Source: a virus. Taken from it: 20,945 bases of DNA. How positions within the stretch are numbered: position 1 is the first letter of the stretch; the number at the start of each line of letters is the position of its first letter. A model generated the notes under the pieces. That model made no database searches. It was not told where the DNA came from and was given only the letters and a program-made list of their open reading frames with translations. The stretch lies in IMG/VR virus record IMGVR_UViG_3300005838_000083, positions 1 through 20,945 of that record. One strand, 5' to 3'. Positions 2,801 through 20,945 of this stretch are shown in pieces. Both the position numbers and the translations under genes were made by a program.

Positions 2801-3005
2801 TCCACAAGTAACCACCTAATTTTAAACTGGCCGCAACAGCATCACGTTCGTTATTAAAGAATATAGTTATAGCTTGATGATTTATATGAGAATGCCAATT
2901 CTTTCCAGGTAGTCCAAACTGTTCAGTAACCCAGGCCATTTCTTCATTCCATTGGCGTAGAGTGTCTCCCTGTTTCCATCTCACTTTAACTGGATACTTT
3001 TTCAT
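2793..3005 (-). CDS. Small phage protein, 70 aa, same C-terminal motif family
   Basis: The function is unknown. This 70-residue protein has a basic, tryptophan-containing N-terminus (MKKYPVKVRWKQGDTLRQWN), a middle segment EEMAWVTEQFGLPG and a C-terminal AITIFFNNERDAVAASLKLG. The end matches the strand, turn and 'DA..A.LK' helix pattern of the 78-aa and 99-aa neighbours. The ATG at 3005 is chosen over an in-frame TTG at 3017; GAAGAG just upstream is a modest ribosome binding site. It overlaps the end of the deformylase gene by 20 bp and the DegT-like gene by 8 bp, so it belongs to one tightly coupled unit. Confidence 0.72.
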   Translation of the reverse strand: MKKYPVKVRWKQGDTLRQWNEEMAWVTEQFGLPGKNWHSHINHQAITIFFNNERDAVAASLKLGGYLWNE

Positions 3006-3471
3006 TTTGCTCTTCAAAACGATTGTGCATAACTATACCATCTAGGTGATCAAGTTCATGTTGAAAGCAGATAGATTTTATCCCCCAAAGTATTGCTTTG
3101 ATTAACTCACCTTTGTGATTATGATATTCTACCTCTATCTGTGCTGGACGTTTTATATTCATTGACTCACCAGGAAAACTTAAACACCCTTCCTCAATTT
3201 GAATCAACTGTTCACTGTGGCTAACAATACGAGGATTAAAGCATTGCATAGGTAATCCTCCTGTAATAAAGTCAGTTTGCATAACAAACACTCTAGCTGA
3301 TATACCAAGTTGCGGAGCCGCAAGCCCAATGCCATTAGACTTTTTCATAAACTCTACCATTCTTTGTGCTAGATGTAAATTCTTTTCGGGTTTAGTAAAG
3401 TCAAAAGGTTGTGCAACCTCGTGTAACACAGTGTCTTTAAATTTAAATTTACTTGGTATCTTTACTTTCAT
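2986..3471 (-). CDS. def: Peptide deformylase
   Basis: The enzyme removes the N-formyl group from nascent proteins as they leave the ribosome. All three family motifs are intact in 161 residues: GIGLAAPQLG (47-56, with Gln54), EGCLSFP (94-100, metal ligand Cys96) and QHELDHLDG (137-145, metal ligands His138 and His142, catalytic Glu139). Bacterial enzymes are about 165-190 residues; the short C-terminal helix makes this resemble other phage deformylases. It sits between small unknown genes in the MoxR unit. The ATG at 3471 lies 6 bp after the stop of the 99-aa gene. Phage deformylases are established in marine phages and are thought to sustain translation late in infection. Confidence 0.95.
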   Translation of the reverse strand: MKVKIPSKFKFKDTVLHEVAQPFDFTKPEKNLHLAQRMVEFMKKSNGIGLAAPQLGISARVFVMQTDFITGGLPMQCFNPRIVSHSEQLIQIEEGCLSFPGESMNIKRPAQIEVEYHNHKGELIKAILWGIKSICFQHELDHLDGIVMHNRFEEQNEKVSS

Positions 3472-7100: not shown

Positions 7101-7129
7101 ATTATAGCAATTTTGGATTTTTTGGTCAA
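7101..7129 (-). promoter_or_regulatory. Sigma70 promoter with a dyad over the -35 box
   Basis: TTGACC (7124-7129) and TATAAT (7101-7106) are 17 bp apart. On the minus strand the -35 box sits inside TTTTGGT-TG-ACCAAAA, a 7+7 bp inverted repeat that could be an operator. The predicted +1 is near 7094. It drives the 88-, 47- and 101-aa genes. Confidence 0.82.
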
Positions 7130-7142
7130 CCAAAACTACCAA

Positions 7143-7406
7143 TTATTTTTGGAAATGTTGACTTTTAAGTTCTAGATATTCTTGACAAGGAGCACATAAC
7201 TGTACACCTTTAACTGCTAAACGTCTAGCTTCAGGAATATCTTCGCCACACTCTTGACATTCTTTTGCACTAGGTCTTTTTGCTTGTTCTTCTAATTCAC
7301 GAGCAACTTTAGCTATATGATTCATATTATTGTGAATAGAATGAAGTTGTCCCATGTCCTCTTCAGACATTGTTTCATTACTGCGATCTAACTCATCATT
7401 GACCAT
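7143..7406 (-). CDS. TraR/DksA-like C4 zinc-finger regulator
   Basis: The 87-residue protein ends in a four-cysteine zinc finger, CQECGEDIPEARR then LCAPCQ (Cys50, 53, 71, 74), almost the TraR signature CxxCGxxIPEARR...GVxLCxxCQ. Its N-terminus MVNDELDRSNE resembles the acidic tip of F-plasmid TraR (SDEADEA), which reaches the RNA polymerase active site through the secondary channel. TraR-type proteins are about 70-90 residues and mimic DksA plus ppGpp, repressing rRNA and activating biosynthetic promoters. The ATG at 7406 (GAGG 9 nt upstream) is chosen over an in-frame TTG at 7442. It overlaps the end of the omega-like gene by 11 bp, so the two are made together. I am confident of the family; the effect on host promoters is inference. 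Confidence 0.9.
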   Translation of the reverse strand: MVNDELDRSNETMSEEDMGQLHSIHNNMNHIAKVARELEEQAKRPSAKECQECGEDIPEARRLAVKGVQLCAPCQEYLELKSQHFQK

Positions 7407-7665
7407 TGAATTGTACCTCTTCTTCTTTAGTTTTAGGCTCAACGTGATCGTCTGGATAATCTGAAGTGATTAGCCCTGCGTCAATTTCCATTAGTGCCAC
7501 TACAGTAGGTTTGTGTGATTCTAATCCTGGAATCAAAGGGGTGGCTCCTTTTTGTAGATCATGAGCTCTTTTACCAGCTGTTATTACCATTGCATATTTG
7601 CCGCCAGGAAACTTTTGTTCTGTTTCAACTTCAACTGTGAAACTTTTCTTTGCATTCCAAACCAT
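7396..7665 (-). CDS. rpoZ-like: RNA polymerase omega-subunit homologue
   Basis: The 89-residue protein matches the omega core: KYAMVITAGKRAHDLQKGA (23-41) then KPTVVALMEIDAGLI (52-66), corresponding to E. coli omega segments RFDLVLVAARRARQMQ and KTTVIALREIEEGLI. E. coli omega is 91 residues, so the length fits. Omega clamps the beta-prime subunit, helps assembly, and its N-terminal MARVT residues form part of ppGpp site 1. Here the N-terminus is MVWNAKKSFTVEVETEQ, without the MAR motif, so the protein may assemble into host polymerase while altering ppGpp binding; that is inference. The start has AAGGAG 5 nt upstream. The gene lies 16 bp after tRNA-Glu and overlaps the TraR-like gene, all behind one consensus promoter. 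Confidence 0.85.
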   Translation of the reverse strand: MVWNAKKSFTVEVETEQKFPGGKYAMVITAGKRAHDLQKGATPLIPGLESHKPTVVALMEIDAGLITSDYPDDHVEPKTKEEEVQFNGQ

Positions 7666-7681
7666 GATATCTCCTTAAAAT

Positions 7682-7756
7682 TGGTACACCCTAGGAGAAT
7701 CGAACTCCTCTCCCGGCCGTGAAAGGGCCGTGTCCTAACCGATAGACGAAGGGTGC
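7682..7756 (-). tRNA. tRNA-Glu (anticodon TTC) with encoded CCA
   Basis: The 75-nt cloverleaf has acceptor arms GCACCCT/AGGGTGT (one G-U pair), anticodon stem CGGCC/GGCCG around the loop CTTTCAC (anticodon TTC), T-arm GAGGAGTTCGATTCTCC, and an encoded CCA. It is intact by eye and closely resembles bacterial tRNA-Glu. It is the first product of the 7798-7826 promoter, about 35 nt downstream of the predicted +1, and must be processed away from the omega-like mRNA. Confidence 0.95.
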
Positions 7757-7797
7757 ATAAATGTAATCGTATACTTTAAATTTCTAAGCATGGAGTT

Positions 7798-7826
7798 ATT
7801 ATATGGTCGATAGTAATAAATGTCAA
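7798..7826 (-). promoter_or_regulatory. Perfect sigma70 promoter of the tRNA-Glu / omega / TraR unit
   Basis: TTGACA (7821-7826) and TATAAT (7798-7803) are separated by exactly 17 bp. The predicted +1 is near 7791. It lies inside the longer of two possible N-termini of the plus-strand gene, which argues that that gene starts at 7851. Confidence 0.87.
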
Positions 7827-7850
7827 CCTTTATTTCAAATAAGTAATAGC

Positions 7851-8132
7851 ATGATTCCAATAGGTAAAGTTGTTAAGTTTATTAATAAAGATTATAAATC
7901 TCATCCAGTTAGATTTGTAGTTGAAGTTGTTGCTTGGATATTAAGTATATCAGCAAGCGTGATTATGGCGGCCACTGTCCCTAATCCTCCTCTATTGATA
8001 ATATATCTACTTTGGGTAATAGGTTGTTCGTTATACTCTTGGGCCGCCATTAGTCGTGGTAGTTTTGGTCTGCTAGCAAACTATGCTCTACTAACAGCTA
8101 TTGATACTTATGGGTTGATTGCTATACTGTAA
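7851..8132 (+). CDS. Conserved phage membrane protein (MIPIGKVVKF family), only plus-strand gene
   Basis: The protein has about 93 residues with three likely membrane segments (roughly residues 21-40, 44-62 and 70-92) after a basic head MIPIGKVVKFINKDYKSHPV. I recognise this as a recurrent small membrane protein of marine tailed phages; no function is known. It is the only gene here on the plus strand, divergent from tRNA-Glu and overlapping the end of the 59-aa minus-strand gene by 11 bp. An in-frame ATG at 7803 with GGAG upstream is an alternative start, but that extension covers a consensus minus-strand promoter, and my recollection of the family is that it starts at MIPIG. TATACT at 7770-7775 is a possible -10 box for it, without a good -35. 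Confidence 0.78.
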   Translation: MIPIGKVVKFINKDYKSHPVRFVVEVVAWILSISASVIMAATVPNPPLLIIYLLWVIGCSLYSWAAISRGSFGLLANYALLTAIDTYGLIAIL

Positions 8133-8301: not shown

Positions 8302-8326
8302 TTATATTCTCCTTGTTTCATAATTT

Positions 8327-8389
8327 TGGTGCCCTCACCATGACTCGAACACGGGAAGTGCGTTGCTCTACCAACTGAGCTATAAGGGC
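8327..8389 (-). pseudogene. tRNA-Thr-like remnant lacking the anticodon arm
   Basis: This 63-nt element keeps a 7-bp acceptor stem (GCCCTTA/TGAGGGC with one wobble), a canonical D-arm (GCTCAGTTGGTAGAGC), a T-arm CCGTG-TTCGAGT-CATGG, and a terminal ACCA. Between D and T arms only 10 nt remain instead of about 23. The residue ACGCACTT equals the 5' anticodon stem and first loop bases of a tRNA-Thr(TGT); the lost 13 nt would be the rest of the anticodon loop, the 3' stem and most of the variable loop. It cannot decode. It could be a decayed gene, a processing signal, a tRNA-like structure or an assembly error. Its first base is the last base of the upstream TAG stop. Confidence 0.8.
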
Positions 8390-8763
8390 TATACTAATGT
8401 ATTCTCTACAAACTTTTCTAAACTACCACAAAGGTTAATGAGAACAGCATCTCGTTCTCCAAACAAATATAACTTACCTTTTGTTTTTTTACTTCGTGCC
8501 CTTTTTATATAATACGGAAATTCCATTTTCCTGTCAAGAGCTAATACTACACGATTGCCCAATACTGAGTTGGCTTCTATATCCCACTCGTATGATTTGA
8601 TATCTAACTGTTGTGTGAATAGTGCAAATCCATGTTCTGTTAATCCCATACCACCAGTGTCTTGTATATTAGTCCACCAGGTTGCTAATGCAATTTCTAA
8701 TGCTAGTGGTTTGTTGATGGTAGCAAGTATTTGCTTAGTTAGATTTAGTTTTTTTCTTTCCAC
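8389..8763 (-). CDS. Conserved phage protein, 124 aa
   Basis: The function is unknown. Notable blocks are an N-terminal helical part (LALEIALATWWTNIQDTGGM), a central FALFTQQLDIKSYEWDI, then LALDRKMEFPYYIKRARSKK and YLFGERDAVLINLCGSLEKF near the end. The order WW...GG...LTxxGFxxF...LDRxxxxPYY...FGxxxA is one I associate with a conserved protein of marine T4-like phages. The best start is GTG at 8763, because no ATG or TTG occurs in the following 35 codons; it overlaps the preceding gene by 29 bp. The stop TAG shares its last base with the tRNA remnant. Confidence 0.76.
   Translation of the reverse strand: MERKKLNLTKQILATINKPLALEIALATWWTNIQDTGGMGLTEHGFALFTQQLDIKSYEWDIEANSVLGNRVVLALDRKMEFPYYIKRARSKKTKGKLYLFGERDAVLINLCGSLEKFVENTLV
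8509..8537 (-). promoter_or_regulatory. Possible internal sigma70 promoter within the 124-aa gene
   Basis: TTGACA (8532-8537) and TATTAT (8509-8514) are separated by 17 bp. It could transcribe the tRNA remnant and the 59-aa gene. It lies in the conserved LDRKMEFPYY coding segment, so protein constraint alone could explain it. Confidence 0.35.
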
Positions 8764-12136: not shown

Positions 12137-12484
12137 CTAGTACTTCTGTTTTTCTGCAATAACACCACGTACACCGCCTCTAGGATCTGCACAATCGCCG
12201 TCTGTGCGTGGAATCATATGTACATGAGGATACATTACTGTTTGTCCTGCTGACTCGCCTACGTTTTGACCTATATTAAAACCAGTGCAATAACCTTTTT
12301 GATATAGATCTAATCCCCAATCATATGCTTCTTCAAAGCAGGCTTTTCTGTGCATCGGGTCGTCTTGTTTAGGAACAAACAATAAGTGGCCTTTGGTTAC
12401 AGGATATTTGTCTTCAAATACTAAAAATAATGGATGATCCATTAGCGGTTTTGATTCAAACCAAGGAGTATCTTCTAGTTTCAT
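12137..12484 (-). CDS. HIT-family nucleotide hydrolase/transferase
   Basis: The 115-residue protein carries the HIT core: VFEDKYPVTKGHLLFVPKQ (22-40), FNIGQNVGESAGQTV (69-83) and PHVHMIPR (86-93). The usual HxHxH appears as Y-P-H-V-H: the catalytic middle His (87) and the last His (89) are kept while the first is Tyr85. The following GDCADPRGGVRGV is typical of dinucleoside polyphosphate hydrolases. Such enzymes cleave AppppA-type or adenylylated substrates. The first 63 residues are almost identical to a truncated copy encoded 540 bp upstream. The ATG at 12484 is 7 bp after the 104-aa membrane protein gene. Confidence 0.85.
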   Translation of the reverse strand: MKLEDTPWFESKPLMDHPLFLVFEDKYPVTKGHLLFVPKQDDPMHRKACFEEAYDWGLDLYQKGYCTGFNIGQNVGESAGQTVMYPHVHMIPRTDGDCADPRGGVRGVIAEKQKY

Positions 12485-12491
12485 AATATTC

Positions 12492-12806
12492 TCACAATTC
12501 GTTAATTAACTTATCAAAAGCTTCTTGACCTAGTACGTTGTACAAAACTAGGACAACAAATATAAACCATAATAATCGAAATACATAATAGCCTAGTTTT
12601 GTCCAACCTAGACCTAATACTTTGTATACTGTTGGCATAGGTAGATACTTCTCAAATAGCGTAGTAATATCCCACGCAAATTTAAGCATGAATATCCACA
12701 TAAATGCTCTAACGTATTTGTTTTCAATGTCAGACACTTTGAAGTTTGCTTGTGCTTCTTTTACTTTCTTATCGTGTGCCTTGTAGCGTTGCCATAAGTT
12801 TTTCAT
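12492..12806 (-). CDS. Membrane protein, 104 aa, between the two HIT copies
   Basis: The function is unknown. A basic helical N-terminus (MKNLWQRYKAHDKKVKEAQA) is followed by two likely membrane segments (about 33-51 and 72-93), the second very hydrophobic (LLWFIFVVLVLYNVLG), and a short acidic tail. It may be an inner-membrane protein with both ends in the cytoplasm. The start overlaps the stop of the truncated HIT copy as ATGA. The gene appears trapped between the two halves of the duplication. Confidence 0.75.
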   Translation of the reverse strand: MKNLWQRYKAHDKKVKEAQANFKVSDIENKYVRAFMWIFMLKFAWDITTLFEKYLPMPTVYKVLGLGWTKLGYYVFRLLWFIFVVLVLYNVLGQEAFDKLINEL

Positions 12807-13024
12807 TTAACTTCAGTGTAGCCACCGCCTAAGTCTTTTTGATATAGATCTAATCCCCAATCATATGCTTCTTCAAAGCAGGCTTTTCTGTGCATTGGGT
12901 CGTCTTGTTTAGGAACAAATAGCAAGTGTCCTTTAGTTACAGGATACTTGTCTTCAAATACTAAAAATAATGGATGGTCCATTACTGGTGTTGATTCGAA
13001 CCAAGGTGTGTCTTCTAGTTTCAT
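12803..13024 (-). CDS. Truncated HIT-domain paralogue with swapped C-terminus
   Basis: The 73-residue protein repeats residues 1-63 of the full HIT protein with very few changes (mainly S-K-P-L to S-T-P-V), then ends DLGGGYTEVK. The whole HIT signature and catalytic histidines are missing, so it cannot be an active HIT enzyme; it might bind the full copy, or be a relic. The new tail resembles the end of the 122-aa neighbour (DLGDGKSEIS), suggesting a recombination join within a short similar sequence. It starts with an ATGA overlap with the 40-aa membrane peptide and the frame is intact, so it is probably translated. Confidence 0.8.
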   Translation of the reverse strand: MKLEDTPWFESTPVMDHPLFLVFEDKYPVTKGHLLFVPKQDDPMHRKACFEEAYDWGLDLYQKDLGGGYTEVK

Positions 13025-13143: not shown

Positions 13144-13511
13144 TATGATATCTCCGATTTACCGTCACCTAAGTCACGCTTGTTAGTTTTCATCCCAGGA
13201 TTCATTGCTTGTTCCTGCTCATATGTTTCCATTACTACGTTTCGACAGATATTTTGAAACCATTGATCTACTAGAGCTTGATCAGTTTTTCCTTGATACC
13301 CTGCCTTTATTAATCTAGCAATAAAAATATCATTCCAATCAAGTTCAAATGCTCCGTCATTTAAATTTTCTGGATCAACATCCATACTTACTATATTAAT
13401 GTATGGTTCTTTATTTTTATCTGCTAATTCTTTAGCTGATAATTTCTTTTTACCTTTCTTAGGCTGTTCTTTCTGGCCTAACATGCTTTTAAGTTTATCT
13501 GTTATTCCCAT
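13143..13511 (-). CDS. Conserved phage protein, 122 aa
   Basis: The function is unknown. A basic, Lys-rich head (MGITDKLKSMLGQKEQPKKG) is followed by LSAKELADKNKEPYINIVSM, then DVDPENLNDGAFELDWNDIF (44-63), a helical DQWFQNICRNVVMETYEQEQ and the tail DLGDGKSEIS. The DPEN...G.FELDWN block is one I recall from a conserved protein of T4-like cyanophages and related marine phages. It overlaps the MetK stop by 10 bp and is probably driven by the consensus promoter inside metK at 13577-13605, with a leader of about 59 nt. Its last residues resemble the tail of the truncated HIT protein. Confidence 0.8.
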   Translation of the reverse strand: MGITDKLKSMLGQKEQPKKGKKKLSAKELADKNKEPYINIVSMDVDPENLNDGAFELDWNDIFIARLIKAGYQGKTDQALVDQWFQNICRNVVMETYEQEQAMNPGMKTNKRDLGDGKSEIS

Positions 13512-14584
13512 CCTATTTTCTCCCAGGGTACGTTTTTATTACCAAAGTGTCCGTAAACACAGTTCTCACGATAGTTATTATAGTTGAATAAATCAAATCT
13601 GTCAATGATTCCTAACGGTGTTAAATCAATATTAGATCTAATAAACTTTTCTATAGAACGATTATGCCCATTTGATTCTACATATATTGATGTAGGTTCT
13701 TTAACACCAATAGCATAACTTAACTGTATTTGACACCAGTCAGCCATTTCACTAGCTACTACATTTTTTGCTAGCCAACGGGCCATATAGGCCGCTGAAC
13801 GATCTACTTTAGTTGGATCCTTGCCACTAAATGCACCACCACCATGTGGAGCCCATCCACCATAAGTATCTACGATAATTTTTCTACCTGTTAGTCCTGA
13901 ATCTCCATCTGGACCACCTACTACAAAGTTACCAGTAGGATTGAGATGCCATACAGTATCATCATCTACTAGATGCCCTAACACTGACAGTGCCACATCT
14001 TGTGATATTTTTCTAGCTTGATCACAATCTCCTTCAGTGTGTTGAGTGCTTATTACCACTTGGTCGATACGCTGTATTTGATCACCTATATATTCAACAC
14101 TGACTTGACTTTTAGCATCTGGCAACAATATATCATTGTTTTGTCTTGCTTGTTTTAGTTGTTTAAGTATCTGGTGACTGTAATATATAGGTGCAGGCAA
14201 GTATGCTTCGTTGTCTCTATTAGCATATCCAAACATAATACCTTGATCACCTGCCCCAAAATCGTCTGTACCTAAGGCAATGTCAGCTGATTGGCTATGT
14301 ATATGATTGTCTATTTCTAGTGTATTCCAATGGAATCCTTCTTGTTCGTATCCAATCTTCTTAACAGTATCTCTAACTATTTGATTGGCATCAACGACAT
14401 TAAAGTTTTTAACTTCACCAGCTAGTGTTACGTGATTTGTTGCTACTAATGTTTCAATCGCTACTCTTGTTGTGCGATCACCTAGTTCTAACCCAGCATC
14501 TACTAAGGCATCAGATATTTGATCTGCTACTTTATCTGGATGTCCGTCTGATACTGATTCACTTGTAAATATATATTTGTCCAA
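13502..14584 (-). CDS. metK: S-adenosylmethionine synthetase
   Basis: This enzyme makes SAM from methionine and ATP. The 360 residues contain the family motifs: FTSESVSDGHPDK (6-18), GAGDQGIMFGYA (110-121), GGPDGDSGLTGRKIIVDTYG (223-242) and GGGAFSGKDPTKVDRSAAY (248-266). Bacterial MetK is about 380-400 residues, so this is slightly short but complete, with the substrate-loop and metal-binding signatures intact. It sits between queE and the 122-aa gene. SAM is used by QueE and by the two methyltransferases in the window, so the phage may be raising its own cofactor supply. The start follows the QueE stop directly. A perfect sigma70 promoter lies within its last 100 bases. Confidence 0.95.
   Translation of the reverse strand: MDKYIFTSESVSDGHPDKVADQISDALVDAGLELGDRTTRVAIETLVATNHVTLAGEVKNFNVVDANQIVRDTVKKIGYEQEGFHWNTLEIDNHIHSQSADIALGTDDFGAGDQGIMFGYANRDNEAYLPAPIYYSHQILKQLKQARQNNDILLPDAKSQVSVEYIGDQIQRIDQVVISTQHTEGDCDQARKISQDVALSVLGHLVDDDTVWHLNPTGNFVVGGPDGDSGLTGRKIIVDTYGGWAPHGGGAFSGKDPTKVDRSAAYMARWLAKNVVASEMADWCQIQLSYAIGVKEPTSIYVESNGHNRSIEKFIRSNIDLTPLGIIDRFDLFNYNNYRENCVYGHFGNKNVPWEKIGWE
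13577..13605 (-). promoter_or_regulatory. Perfect sigma70 promoter inside the 3' end of metK
   Basis: TTGACA (13600-13605) and TATAAT (13577-13582) are separated by 17 bp, within codons for IDRFDLFNYNNY. The predicted +1 is near 13570, so the transcript would begin about 60 nt before the 122-aa gene. It can uncouple the 13511-11432 genes from metK. Confidence 0.78.
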
Positions 14585-15451
14585 TTATGTTCCCCAGGCA
14601 TTACGCCAAATGTCTACTTGTAGTCTAGGTGAATACCTATATGCTTTTTTCATTGATAATTCTGCTACTTGTTCAGTATTAAGATGATAGTCTTCTGGTA
14701 ATCCACCTATAGGCATTAAGTATACTGGTCCTTGAAATCCTGCATCTCTGTATTCTTTTACTGCACGATCAACATCTTCAACGTCATCTTCAGTTGACAC
14801 TACAAACTTAAGATATGTATAACCTAGTTTTTCATAGTTAACAACAATGTCAGGTTTAATTGCTTCTTCCCACTTCTCACCTGAACATGGCAGTTTAGCA
14901 CTCACTGAGAATGTTAGTTGATCCCATAGTCTCAGACCATGCCATACATTGTAAACCCATTGTTCAAACTCTGGTGCTATCTCTTGTGTACCGTTAGTTT
15001 CAAATGTTATGTTGTGTAATCCTTTTTCCATAGCTTGTTCAAGCAGTTCTGGATAGCTACGTTGCCAACCCAATAACGGTTCACCACCTGTAATTACTAA
15101 GTGTACATCTTGCTGTGAATCATTATCCCAACGACCTCCTGGAATAAGTTCTTCCATTCGTTGATTAACAGCCGTTGTTTCTAATACTGGAGATAAGTGC
15201 TTAAACTTTGGATGCCATGACGCATAACTATCACAACCTGTTGCCGCTAAAGGCAGTTCCTCATATATCTTAAACTGATCTACCTTTTCAGCTATTTCCT
15301 CAGGAACTGTAGTAGATTCACCTTTAGGTAAACCAAACCCTCTACATTGAAAGTTACAACCAAAAGTTCTTAAGAATACACTAGGCACACCTGCCCATTT
15401 ACCTTCACCTTGTAAACTATAAAATATTTCTGCTACTTTAAGTTTTTTCAA
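14585..15451 (-). CDS. queE: 7-carboxy-7-deazaguanine synthase (QueE-like radical SAM enzyme)
   Basis: QueE turns 6-carboxytetrahydropterin into 7-carboxy-7-deazaguanine with a radical SAM iron-sulphur cluster. Visible features are EIFYSLQGEGKWAGVPSVFL (8-27), Cys32 and Cys36 in GCNFQCRGFG, ITGGEP (120-125) and FETNGT (149-154). The usual third cysteine two residues later is absent; the likely replacement is Cys73 in ATGCDSY, giving CX3CX36C. The 288 residues exceed the 210-225 of typical QueE, in keeping with an insertion. Together with QueD at 17751-18326 it supports 7-deazaguanine synthesis, for tRNA queuosine or for modification of phage DNA. No DpdA, QueC or FolE is present in this window. 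Confidence 0.85.
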   Translation of the reverse strand: MKKLKVAEIFYSLQGEGKWAGVPSVFLRTFGCNFQCRGFGLPKGESTTVPEEIAEKVDQFKIYEELPLAATGCDSYASWHPKFKHLSPVLETTAVNQRMEELIPGGRWDNDSQQDVHLVITGGEPLLGWQRSYPELLEQAMEKGLHNITFETNGTQEIAPEFEQWVYNVWHGLRLWDQLTFSVSAKLPCSGEKWEEAIKPDIVVNYEKLGYTYLKFVVSTEDDVEDVDRAVKEYRDAGFQGPVYLMPIGGLPEDYHLNTEQVAELSMKKAYRYSPRLQVDIWRNAWGT

Positions 15452-17302: not shown

Positions 17303-17758
17303 CTACTGCCACCAGTCCTCCCAAGGAAACACTTGCCAAACATTTTCTTCAAGTTTATTAATATCAAGACTTGAATAATCAACTTCTTCAGTGCTAGCTT
17401 CATTGTTAATTAATACTGCATAGGTTACTGCGTCAGTTCCCCATACGTCTTTGATAGCAGATATAGTAGCACCAGTGTCATTGATATCATCTATCACTAA
17501 CACTCGTTTGCCTTTATTAATACCAATTTCTTCTTTGAGTGCATTGAGATTATCTTCACCTACATGGTCACGTAAGCTTACTTTTACGGCGTGCATTGGT
17601 ATATCTAGATACTGCGAAACCAGCACAGCGGGCGTTAAACCGCCCCTTGTGAGCCCAACTACACAATCAAAACTTTGTTGATCTACGTGAAGTTGTCTAA
17701 TAATATCCTGTGTCATTTCTTCAACTTGTTGCCAACTGTAAAACGCTTTCTTAGTCAT
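17303..17758 (-). CDS. Purine phosphoribosyltransferase
   Basis: The 151-residue protein has the PRPP-binding motif VLVIDDINDTGAT (86-98), a GLTRGG loop (35-40) near the diphosphate site and a C-terminal WQVFPWEDWW typical of guanine/xanthine/hypoxanthine PRTases. It would make a purine nucleotide from the free base and PRPP. Beside QueD this could supply guanine nucleotides or handle a 7-deazapurine base; that link is inference. Three in-frame ATGs exist (17788, 17764, 17758). I chose 17758, which gives an 8-bp overlap with queD and a GGGAG 10 nt upstream. Confidence 0.86.
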   Translation of the reverse strand: MTKKAFYSWQQVEEMTQDIIRQLHVDQQSFDCVVGLTRGGLTPAVLVSQYLDIPMHAVKVSLRDHVGEDNLNALKEEIGINKGKRVLVIDDINDTGATISAIKDVWGTDAVTYAVLINNEASTEEVDYSSLDINKLEENVWQVFPWEDWWQ

Positions 17759-18326
17759 TGCCATATTTCTCCCAACGAGGAACGTCATTTATATAAACTG
17801 ATCTTGACTTGGGTGTTTCATACCATTCAACACGTTGAACTCTAACACCAAGTTTCTTCATCTTGATTTCTACAAGTTCAGCCATCCAACTTGATAAGTT
17901 TTCTGATGTAGGCACAAAGTCTACAATCATGAAACCCTCATAGTATTCATATTCTGGTGTGTTAGGATCTAAATCGCTAAGATCTAAATGCCAACCTGTT
18001 ACGTGATTTACACCAGGTAATATAACTGGAATTAATTTACGATCACCAATCATTTGATTATATAGTGGATCATTCTTGTCTAGCACAAACTGATGATCAA
18101 TATATTCATTGATCCATTTCTTTAACCACTCTAAGTGTCTAAAGTCTGTTACCATGCCAGTTGCATCCAGTTTGTCTGCTGTCAGGTGAACAGTCATGCG
18201 TCCTTCATGACCATGTAAATGTCTACAAGCACATTTAAGATCAGCGGCGTATTCACCGTTTAGTGTCTGTGTGTGAACCCTGTGTCCATAACAGAATTCA
18301 AATGCTTTATCGATGATGTGTGTCAT
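17751..18326 (-). CDS. queD: 6-carboxy-5,6,7,8-tetrahydropterin synthase (QueD-like)
   Basis: QueD makes 6-carboxytetrahydropterin, the substrate of QueE. Family residues are present: zinc His15 in CYGHRV, Cys34 (catalytic) plus zinc ligands His38 and His40 in CRHLHGH (34-40), Asp77-His78 in IDHQF, and Glu142 in PTSEN. The protein is 191 residues against about 120 for E. coli QueD; the extra length lies mostly between about 85 and 135. An 80-nt untranslated leader precedes it, and the ribosome binding site is TGGAGAG before the ATG. The 3' end overlaps the phosphoribosyltransferase gene. It shares the deazaguanine route with queE, 2.3 kb downstream. Confidence 0.88.
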   Translation of the reverse strand: MTHIIDKAFEFCYGHRVHTQTLNGEYAADLKCACRHLHGHEGRMTVHLTADKLDATGMVTDFRHLEWLKKWINEYIDHQFVLDKNDPLYNQMIGDRKLIPVILPGVNHVTGWHLDLSDLDPNTPEYEYYEGFMIVDFVPTSENLSSWMAELVEIKMKKLGVRVQRVEWYETPKSRSVYINDVPRWEKYGND

Positions 18327-18568: not shown

Positions 18569-19023
18569 TATTTTTTCTCCGCTTCTGCCACTCGTTTACG
18601 TAATGAACTTGAACTAAATGAATGATCGCGGCCATTATATACTAATTCAATTCCCCTTTTAATACAAATATCTTTACCAGTAAAGTCTTTATCTTTATAC
18701 TCTACTCCTAATATTCTAACATCTATTGGCATAGAAAGCAAGATATCTTCTAAATCTTTTTCTGTTTGGTATACCACAATTTCATCAACAAAGCGATTAC
18801 ATCCTAACTGTATCTGTCTTTCTACTATTGACTGTATAGGACTGTTTTTGTTTGCTCTGTCTAGTGTAGGATCTGTTTGCAATCCTGCTATCAAGTAATC
18901 ACAGTGATTTTTACATTCGCTTAACATAGCAACATGCCCAGCGTGTAATAGGTCAAAGGTTGAGAAAGTGATGCCTATCTTCAACCCTTGGTCTTTAAGT
19001 TGTTTTACTTTATCAAATATCAT
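18568..19023 (-). CDS. TagD/RfaE-like nucleotidyltransferase (HxGH family)
   Basis: The 151-residue protein is a cytidylyltransferase-like enzyme: ITFSTFDLLHAGHVAML contains the HxGH motif (His27, His30), and HSFSSSSLRKRV near the C-terminus corresponds to the second nucleotide-binding motif (ISSTxLR type). Such enzymes join CMP or AMP to glycerol-3-phosphate, ethanolamine phosphate or heptose-1-phosphate to activate a head-group or sugar. The single-domain length fits TagD-like proteins. It may feed the glycosyltransferase or surface modification, but the substrate cannot be read from the sequence. It is coupled by TAATG to the protease gene before it and to the 53-aa gene after it. Confidence 0.82.
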   Translation of the reverse strand: MIFDKVKQLKDQGLKIGITFSTFDLLHAGHVAMLSECKNHCDYLIAGLQTDPTLDRANKNSPIQSIVERQIQLGCNRFVDEIVVYQTEKDLEDILLSMPIDVRILGVEYKDKDFTGKDICIKRGIELVYNGRDHSFSSSSLRKRVAEAEKK

Positions 19024-20945
19024 TAAAAAGTAAACTCGTAAAATGCACCAACTAATGCGTCACCTTCTTGATCAACAGCACCATTAAGTCTTAAATTGTG
19101 TACATTACCAAATTTATCTTCTGAGTTGGTTAAGTTATACTGAGCACCTACATAACTAACAGGCTCACCTGTCATGTCTGCTTTGGCATTAGTATATGAC
19201 ATAACACCTGTGCTACTAACTGATGTTGGTATTCTTAAATCTAACTCACCATCTATCACAGTAGGCTTAACACCTACATATAAGTTTAAGTTATCGTTAG
19301 CCCAACCAGCAACACCATACATTGAAGTAATATTATCAACATCTTCAACTAGTCCGCTATCAAAGTCTGTTATAGAATACATAATACCTAGTTGTGCATA
19401 CCAATTGTCTGGCTTATACATTGTTGAATACTCAAATGTGTCTGTTGAATTAACTTGCCCCCACATACCACTGAAGCTCATAAAAGGTGATCCGTAACTT
19501 TTTGTGTAAGTAAATCTTTCTGTCCAGTTACTTGGATTCATAATTTTTCCAGTGTACTGATCTCTTATTGCCAGAGCTGAACTGTCAAACCCAACTGATA
19601 TTGCATCAAATGTATCATCACCTAAGTCTTGTTGATAAGCATTAAGATACCAACCTTTATAGTTTGCACCTTCTCCTCCTACAAACTTACTTGACCATGA
19701 ACTACCCACTGAGTGATCTAATTGATATACAGGAATTAAATTTGAGCTACCTTCCTTAAGATCTAGTGTTGATGAACTCAAATCAACTGTGTAGTCACGA
19801 CCTATTTCATCAACTACTTTAACACTTGACAGTTCTGTTATATCACTAATACCTGCTACGGCAATACCACCCGATAGTGGTGTAGTGGATCCTGTTCTAC
19901 CTGTCATTGATATACCTAAACTACCAATTGGTTCAGTAGCTCTCTTAAGATCTAACAAGCCTTGACCGTGTGTGTTAACATTGTAACCTACTATAGTTTT
20001 GTCAGCAGTATCTAATAACACTTGAACAATGTTTTCACCTTTCATGTATGGCCACATTTGATGTATAACTGCTACTGCACCAGCAACTACAGGAGCCGCT
20101 TGTGATGTACCACTCAATGCTTTATAAGTACCATCTTTGTATGCACCATACATATTACTGCCTGGTGCTAATATATAAAAGTCTGAAGTTCTATAAGTGT
20201 CTAAACATTCACTGCCACTATAGTTTTTACAAATATGTCCTGACTTTGCACCATCAATAGTGTTAGTAGAAGTATTCCATGCACTAACAACTATTGCACG
20301 ACCGTCCATAACCAAGTTACCTGAACTATCTGTTGCTACTGCAAATGTCGCAGGATTCTGTACATAATCGTTTGATTGATTACCTGCTGATATAGTTAAT
20401 ACTATTTCACTACCTGACATAGCACTACCCCAAGACTCTGGAGTTTCCATATTATAATAGTTAGTTCCGCCATAGTGTTCATGGTTACTAGTAAACACAC
20501 CATTACCTCGATTAGTAATTGAACTTGTGTAGGATGAATGATAGTTTGTATTTGCTGATAAGTTGGCTACTACTGCGTCTGTATTATTCTTAAGATATGT
20601 AATACCTTGTTTTGCAAAGCTCATTGAAGCTGACCATGAGTCAGTAATTTTAACAATAGCTAGGTTAGCATCTGGTGCTATACCCATAACATCTCCGCCC
20701 ATGTTACCAGCCGCAATTGATGCTACATGAGTACCGTGACCTACTGAATCTTCAATTCCATTGTCATAACCTGGTTCCCATTGATACTTAACTTTGCCAA
20801 CTAGTTCTGGGTGATCAATATCAACTCCACTATCTAATATACCAATTGTGGATCCTTTACCTGTCCATCCTCTTGACAATGCCCACTCTTGACCAACTGC
20901 TGAGTTAAAGTTTTTAAAGTTATCAAGACCTTGATAATATGTTGG
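19023..20945 (-). CDS. Subtilisin-like serine protease with C-terminal beta-barrel-like domain (5' end outside window)
   Basis: The frame stays open to the right edge, giving 640 visible residues (numbered from base 20945) with the N-terminus missing. The S8 triad is intact: Asp38 in GILDSGVD, His70 in GHGTHVAS, Ser281 in SGTSQAAP, with oxyanion Asn189 in ISAGN. After about residue 330 the sequence changes to alternating strands rich in Tyr, Trp, Ser and Gly and ends GAFYEFTF, a terminal aromatic typical of outer-membrane barrels. The layout resembles a subtilase autotransporter (SphB1-like) rather than a phage tail protein. A signal peptide, if any, is outside the window. It is coupled by TAATG to the nucleotidyltransferase gene. 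In a phage this is unusual; cell-surface proteolysis during infection is inference. Confidence 0.82.
   Translation of the reverse strand, partial: PTYYQGLDNFKNFNSAVGQEWALSRGWTGKGSTIGILDSGVDIDHPELVGKVKYQWEPGYDNGIEDSVGHGTHVASIAAGNMGGDVMGIAPDANLAIVKITDSWSASMSFAKQGITYLKNNTDAVVANLSANTNYHSSYTSSITNRGNGVFTSNHEHYGGTNYYNMETPESWGSAMSGSEIVLTISAGNQSNDYVQNPATFAVATDSSGNLVMDGRAIVVSAWNTSTNTIDGAKSGHICKNYSGSECLDTYRTSDFYILAPGSNMYGAYKDGTYKALSGTSQAAPVVAGAVAVIHQMWPYMKGENIVQVLLDTADKTIVGYNVNTHGQGLLDLKRATEPIGSLGISMTGRTGSTTPLSGGIAVAGISDITELSSVKVVDEIGRDYTVDLSSSTLDLKEGSSNLIPVYQLDHSVGSSWSSKFVGGEGANYKGWYLNAYQQDLGDDTFDAISVGFDSSALAIRDQYTGKIMNPSNWTERFTYTKSYGSPFMSFSGMWGQVNSTDTFEYSTMYKPDNWYAQLGIMYSITDFDSGLVEDVDNITSMYGVAGWANDNLNLYVGVKPTVIDGELDLRIPTSVSSTGVMSYTNAKADMTGEPVSYVGAQYNLTNSEDKFGNVHNLRLNGAVDQEGDALVGAFYEFTF

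Follow-up and report, generated by a model that had tools for sequence, protein, structure and literature searches.

The window examined here, the whole 20,945-nucleotide stretch of an IMG/VR virus record, carries on its minus strand a compact unit in which a sigma70-type promoter (7826 to 7798) is followed by a tRNA-Glu gene, a gene for a homologue of the RNA polymerase (RNAP) omega subunit, and a gene for a DksA/TraR-type zinc-finger protein (Table 1). The promoter, described as perfect in an initial annotation made from the sequence, is one of four sites in the window that match the sigma70-type consensus at 12 of 12 positions, all of them on the minus, that is, the coding strand; a first-order Markov simulation gives a chance expectation of 0.027 such sites for the window. 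The sequence AAGGAGAT lies immediately 5′ of the omega ATG, and a Shine–Dalgarno-like GAGG is found nine bases upstream of the zinc-finger ATG at 7406. With this start codon, the 11-bp overlap of the two genes given in the initial annotation is exact, and the overlap suggests that their translation is coupled. A 99-aa form of the zinc-finger protein, starting from TTG at 7442, was considered and judged unlikely, because relatives have the inner ATG in common. The next promoter-like site is the predicted downstream bound of the omega/zinc-finger unit.

Table 1. Position, strand, and supporting evidence of features in the window
Feature	Position	Strand	Evidence or remark
Sigma70-type promoter, TTGACA-17-TATAAT	7798-7826	-	12/12 consensus match; predicted to drive the unit
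tRNA-Glu, anticodon ttc, CCA encoded	7682-7756	-	ARAGORN; optional passenger
RNAP omega (RpoZ) homologue, 89 aa, ATG start	7396-7665	-	PF01192, TIGR00690, PDB sequence and fold
DksA/TraR-type C4 zinc-finger gene, 87 aa from ATG 7406	7143-7406	-	PF01258, phrog_54, fold
Overlap of omega stop region and zinc-finger start, 11 bp	7396-7406	-	Sequence
Promoter-like site, TTGACC-17-TATAAT, TG before the -10	7101-7129	-	Precedes the following gene
Conserved membrane protein, ~93 aa from ATG 7851	7803-8132	+	
Likely decayed tRNA-Thr	~8325-8390	-	None found by ARAGORN
HIT-like gene, partial duplication	12137-12484 / 12803-13024	-	First 190 bases of the ORF pair align ungapped, ~93% identity
S-adenosylmethionine synthetase, QueE-like and QueD-like enzymes, likely peptide deformylase	13502-14584, 14585-15451, 17751-18326, 2986-3471	-	
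Subtilisin-like serine protease, 640 aa, open at window end	19023-20945	-	Unusual for a phage; C-terminal end possibly barrel-like

Identity of the two proteins

The omega candidate scores 46.9 bits against Pfam PF01192 (cut-off 26) and 43.1 bits against the rpoZ equivalog TIGR00690 (cut-off 23.6), and a phmmer search of the PDB returned RNAP omega chains as its only significant matches (best E 4e-9). An AlphaFold2 model built from six family members (pLDDT 74.7, pTM 0.64) was compared with the PDB using Foldseek, and the top 50 matches listed are RNAP complexes, through their omega chains, or an omega (RpoZ) model, with probabilities of 0.84-1.00, a best E of 4.4e-3, and TM scores of ~0.5-0.6; the small size of the protein accounts for the modest E-values. 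A failure of the predicted structure of the 89-aa protein to match omega had been named beforehand as a possible refutation, and the structure matches omega. Sequence and modeled fold thus agree in identifying an RNAP omega homologue, as initially proposed. Its dN/dS of 0.10-0.35 across six relatives indicates purifying selection.

The phage protein resembles bacterial RpoZ in the core helices and in the VALxEIxxGLI and RA(H/R)xLQ motifs, and is ~36-45% identical to gammaproteobacterial omegas. It differs in being phage-encoded, in a seven-residue N-terminal extension (MVWNAKK...), in its long branch in the omega tree, and in having no in-register counterpart of Arg3 or Ala2. When the window omega was the sole query of a genome scan, no bacterial donor emerged; a wider scan returned gammaproteobacterial and acidobacterial omegas at ~33-51% identity. 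In a tree of 95 alignment columns, the omegas related to that of the window form one clade on a long branch (clade A, here the window clade; SH-aLRT 99), and the tree test does not reject one common origin for the phage omegas as a whole (p-AU 0.65).

The zinc-finger protein scores 41.8 bits against PF01258 (cut-off 24.9), matches phrog_54 (DksA-like zinc-finger protein) at 1e-17, and has four invariant zinc-finger cysteines; a dN/dS of 0.07-0.22 again indicates purifying selection. Searched by sequence, the PDB gives YbiI as best match (1.8e-8) and TraR at 8e-7. The AlphaFold2 model is weak (pLDDT 69.5, pTM 0.33) and is closest in fold to TraR (6n57/5w1s) and YbiI, followed by DksA; the structural comparison with TraR called for in the initial annotation thus returned TraR itself as best match (6n57_M, probability 1.00), on a model of low quality. 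Within this weak model, helices H27-55, H71-76, and H84-98 and an extra N-terminal helix are predicted, and the TraR layout of N-terminal helix, globular zinc domain, and C-terminal helix is present. One long helix, a C4 finger of the form C..CG..IPEARR..GV..C..CQ, and a short C-terminal helix are likewise common to TraR of the F plasmid and to Orf73 of lambda and Orf82 of P2, the latter two also being phage-carried. Escherichia coli YbiI and the phrog_54 proteins are related in sequence, but are single genes without an omega partner as far as seen.

The match to TraR proper is incomplete. Apart from having omega as a partner, the protein falls below the cut-off of the TraR subfamily model TIGR02419 (48 versus 59.7 bits), and its N-terminus is 12 to 14 residues longer than that of TraR, with a DxxDxS motif at another distance from the finger. 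This motif reads D4xxD7xS9 in the window and in the relatives L003 and L006; D4 is replaced by E or N in L005 and L007, and D7 by N in L002. From D7 to the first Cys there are 43 residues, versus 31 in TraR, or ~12 further. The N-terminal DxxDxA of TraR and its phage homologues extends to the RNAP active site and is required for their function (PMC9239242), and the contact made there by the zinc-finger protein may differ from that of TraR. The TraR-type label of the initial annotation therefore stands at the level of the DksA/TraR zinc finger, and we describe the protein as a DksA/TraR-type factor with a possibly TraR-like mode of action, without calling it a TraR.

Recurrence of the gene pair and its phage setting

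The initial annotation had proposed a search of phage genomes for the same two genes, and we find the pair, in identical order, in nine further IMG/VR contigs (L002 to L007, L255, L334, and L336), so that the pairing is more than chance and the notion of a coupled pair is borne out. These contigs represent eight distinct viruses, or nine among the ten with the window, since L004 has 98% of its 21-mers in common with L003. Every compared contig except L002 has ≤3% of 21-mers in common with the window, and identity among the aligned omegas falls to 38% for the most divergent one. Upstream of omega, at a distance of 27-132 bp, each of the ten contigs carries -35 and -10 elements spaced by exactly 17 bp, with 10 to 12 of 12 matches. 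The omega and zinc-finger genes overlap by 8 bp in L002 to L007 and in L334, and are separated by 4 bp in L255 and by 127 bp in L336.

The tRNA-Glu lies inside the unit in six contigs (the window, L002, L003, L004, L006, and L007), precedes the promoter in L334 and so falls outside the unit there, and does not occur in L005, L255, or L336. Because of this absence or displacement in four of the ten paired contigs, it is optional, and we rejected it as an essential part of the unit; the initial annotation was right about its presence and not about its membership in the functional core, where it is incidental. Other neighbors vary as well. A gene for a ClpP-like protease directly follows the TraR-type gene in L003, L006, L007, and L255, and is not found there in the window; the conserved membrane-protein gene of Table 1 is divergent from the tRNA-omega-TraR unit in the window and L002, whereas in L334 and L336 it lies directly downstream of the TraR-type gene and is codirectional with it. 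Where the window has its likely decayed tRNA-Thr, L002 has an intact one, of which an 18-of-19-base 5′ match remains in the window by local alignment.

For the flanking genes, the closest isolates are the Pseudomonas jumbo phages PA5oct and Paride (Arenbergviridae) and their kin, with 54% identity for the exonuclease and 52% for the ATPase, and with conserved order of QueE, exonuclease, small conserved genes, and MoxR-type ATPase. Paride and PA5oct share this neighborhood and each encode one DksA/TraR zinc-finger protein, but they have no omega gene, and their zinc-finger gene, of the short TraR-like form, lies ~40 kb away. We also considered the genes in the same place in Paride, PA5oct, Phosso, and an Erwinia phage (Paride_0129/0130) as homologues of the pair, and rejected them as conserved 105- and 124-aa neighbors. 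Since Paride and PA5oct lack omega and have the zinc-finger gene elsewhere, the omega-TraR unit has the appearance of an accessory element inserted into a block that is conserved in other respects.

This setting bears on whether the omega gene is bacterial contamination or a functionless transient acquisition, a concern raised by the named phage collection. Among its 50,697 records, we found no convincing isolate carrier of omega: two omega-bearing records that were inspected (Listeria and Enterococcus) are bacterial chromosome with the order gmk-rpoZ-priA, and the remaining matches are identical to the enterobacterial gene or, in one case, of the Listeria/Enterococcus kind, with further matches to annotated rpoZ on 240-kb Acinetobacter records and to one 4.4-kb fecal fragment. 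Phage-labeled records with a bacterial rpoZ include OR848334, OR846588, OR845831, OR851528, MG065691, CAKLQH020000003, and similar entries. The window and its relatives, however, are syntenic with the PA5oct/Paride phages, and their omega lies among phage genes in ten contigs under purifying selection; synteny with true phages and recurrence refute contamination, and we assign this explanation a negligible probability. What is present is a conserved phage gene pair of two known protein families, whose combination and setting are new to the papers and annotated collections searched.

Unpaired phage omegas and the omega N-terminus

Sigma factors, anti-sigma proteins, TraR homologues, and entire RNA polymerases are known from phages. 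We found no description in the literature searched of a phage-encoded omega or of any phage copy of a host RNAP core subunit, and PHROGs contains no omega family. Outside the window clade, at least ~95 IMG/VR contigs carry an omega (L108-L122 and L127-L219), some of them 300-524 kb in length, with omega adjoining tRNA arrays or other phage genes; the 524-kb contig 3300027749_002876 has two copies (L165 and L173). A T4-type terminase is present in all six unpaired-omega contigs of ≥170 kb tested, and a DksA/TraR zinc finger in none of 17 large ones. With the window-clade profile, weaker omegas are also detected in several more large contigs, which have the core neighbor gene of the window. With TraR but no omega in many phages, and omega but no TraR in many others, the pairing is not obligatory.

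That an omega could be a subunit of a phage-encoded polymerase specified elsewhere in the genome was considered, given that the window is a 20.9-kb fragment, so that beta and beta-prime genes could lie beyond it, and that multisubunit RNAPs exist in some jumbo phages. The known jumbo-phage enzymes, however, lack both alpha and omega (PMC7598289), and a beta-subunit homologue (PF00562) was found neither in Paride, a complete relative, nor in the 17 large unpaired-omega contigs, from which omega most likely serves the host enzyme. The consensus sigma70 promoters of the window also point to use of host RNAP, and a phage polymerase as the destination of omega seems to us highly improbable.

On host RNAP, ppGpp binds at site 1, between omega and beta-prime, and at site 2, between DksA and beta-prime, and residues 2 to 5 of E. 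coli omega help coordinate the ligand at site 1 (PMC7676912). The corresponding motif A-R-x-T, which we treated as a site-1 feature and not as a requirement for omega membership, is absent from the window clade. In an alignment that is not unique at the N-terminus, the Arg3 position is occupied by T, V, or I in all six window-clade omegas and by Arg in none, whereas R is found in 53 of 56 nonredundant phage omegas from outside the clade; of the 52 bacterial omegas with a residue there, 50 have R or H. The seven-residue extension (MVWNAKK/MAY...) is present in these six aligned window-clade omegas and in those of L334 and L255, which have I and H, respectively, at the Arg3 position; the L336 omega has no extension and begins MSRAFIVT. 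L255 and L336 weaken a strict rule that TraR-paired omegas have lost Arg3, although neither has Arg in strict register. Because the N-terminal alignment is not unique and Lys6 of the extension might substitute, it is a prediction only that ppGpp site 1 is lost with the omegas of the window clade.

Proposed action on the host polymerase

Directly supported are the identities and order of the genes, the promoter, the overlap, the recurrence of the pair, and purifying selection on both proteins. From these we infer expression, binding, exchange with host omega, and effects on promoters and ppGpp, and consider it probable that the pair is a two-gene takeover unit whose products both bind host RNAP and place it under phage, ppGpp-independent control. 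Host sigma70 RNAP would transcribe the unit from its consensus promoter, and the overlapping genes on one mRNA would yield omega and the zinc-finger protein together. The phage omega would bind beta-prime at the place of host omega, in newly assembled or omega-poor polymerase; omega variants with tighter binding to alpha2-beta-beta-prime can act over the resident omega (PMC7700224). The TraR-type protein would enter the secondary channel, the place of DksA and ppGpp site 2, and, judging from TraR and lambda Orf73, would act without ppGpp and exclude DksA (PMC9239242, PMC6970531). Under such control, ribosomal promoters would be less active, leaving more polymerase for phage promoters. In lambda, P2, and other phages, TraR homologues bind RNAP and reprogram host promoters, and lambda Orf73 raises phage yield (PMC9239242).

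Compared with the host system, the two phage proteins correspond to both small proteins that form ppGpp sites with beta-prime (PMC7676912), and the fit with sites 1 and 2 put forward in the initial annotation agrees with the omega and TraR/DksA-type identities. The arrangement suggests that the phage refits host polymerase at both places where ppGpp normally acts. Unlike DksA with ppGpp, TraR-type proteins do not use the nucleotide, and the window-clade omega is without the usual N-terminal residues. A more far-reaching version, which we advance as possible though doubtful, is that host RNAP loses ppGpp control at sites 1 and 2 simultaneously, with the TraR-type protein displacing DksA at site 2 and giving ppGpp-independent control, and an omega without the ppGpp-coordinating N-terminus replacing host omega at site 1; more broadly, phage omegas would be an undescribed, widespread class of host-polymerase remodeling factors in large phages.

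Speaking against a takeover role, E. coli strains that lack omega show weak phenotypes. The most serious rival, since most phage omegas are unpaired and host-like at the N-terminus, holds that the phage omega is mainly an assembly chaperone that maintains folded beta-prime and the RNAP supply over a long jumbo-phage infection and has no particular influence on ppGpp, and that the TraR-like protein is independent and merely coexpressed. Omega does help beta-prime to fold and RNAP to assemble (PMC7700224, PMC5811629), and nearly all of the ~95 contigs with omega outside the paired clade have the host-like N-terminus; the conserved TraR overlap and the remodeled N-terminus of the paired clade would be left unexplained, and we regard a mainly chaperone role as unlikely. 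Dominant-lethal omega mutants that poison RNAP through tighter binding (PMC7700224) offer a precedent for a decoy that displaces host omega and inactivates the enzyme, for example in transcription shut-off, with the zinc-finger protein stabilizing the inhibited state. Full inactivation would, however, harm the phage, which itself seems to depend on host sigma70 RNAP and whose tested relatives gave no match to sigma-70 region 2; a poison is quite improbable.

The elements, homologies, and pairing of the initial annotation thus hold, whereas the role of tRNA-Glu does not, and the zinc-finger protein scores below the TraR subfamily cut-off; the proposed binding to host RNAP, altered stringent control, and lowered rRNA synthesis are predictions from TraR homologues such as lambda Orf73 (PMC9239242), so that the initial interpretation is supported in part. 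New beside it are the omegas of many uncultivated phages without TraR and the altered N-terminus of the window clade. As a probable takeover unit, the pair maps onto both ppGpp sites of RNAP, and its members are for that reason natural reagents for separating sites 1 and 2. Paride replicates on dormant hosts, for which relA/spoT and rpoS are needed (PMC10761892), and the pair found in its relatives bears on the dependence of some jumbo phages on host stress physiology.
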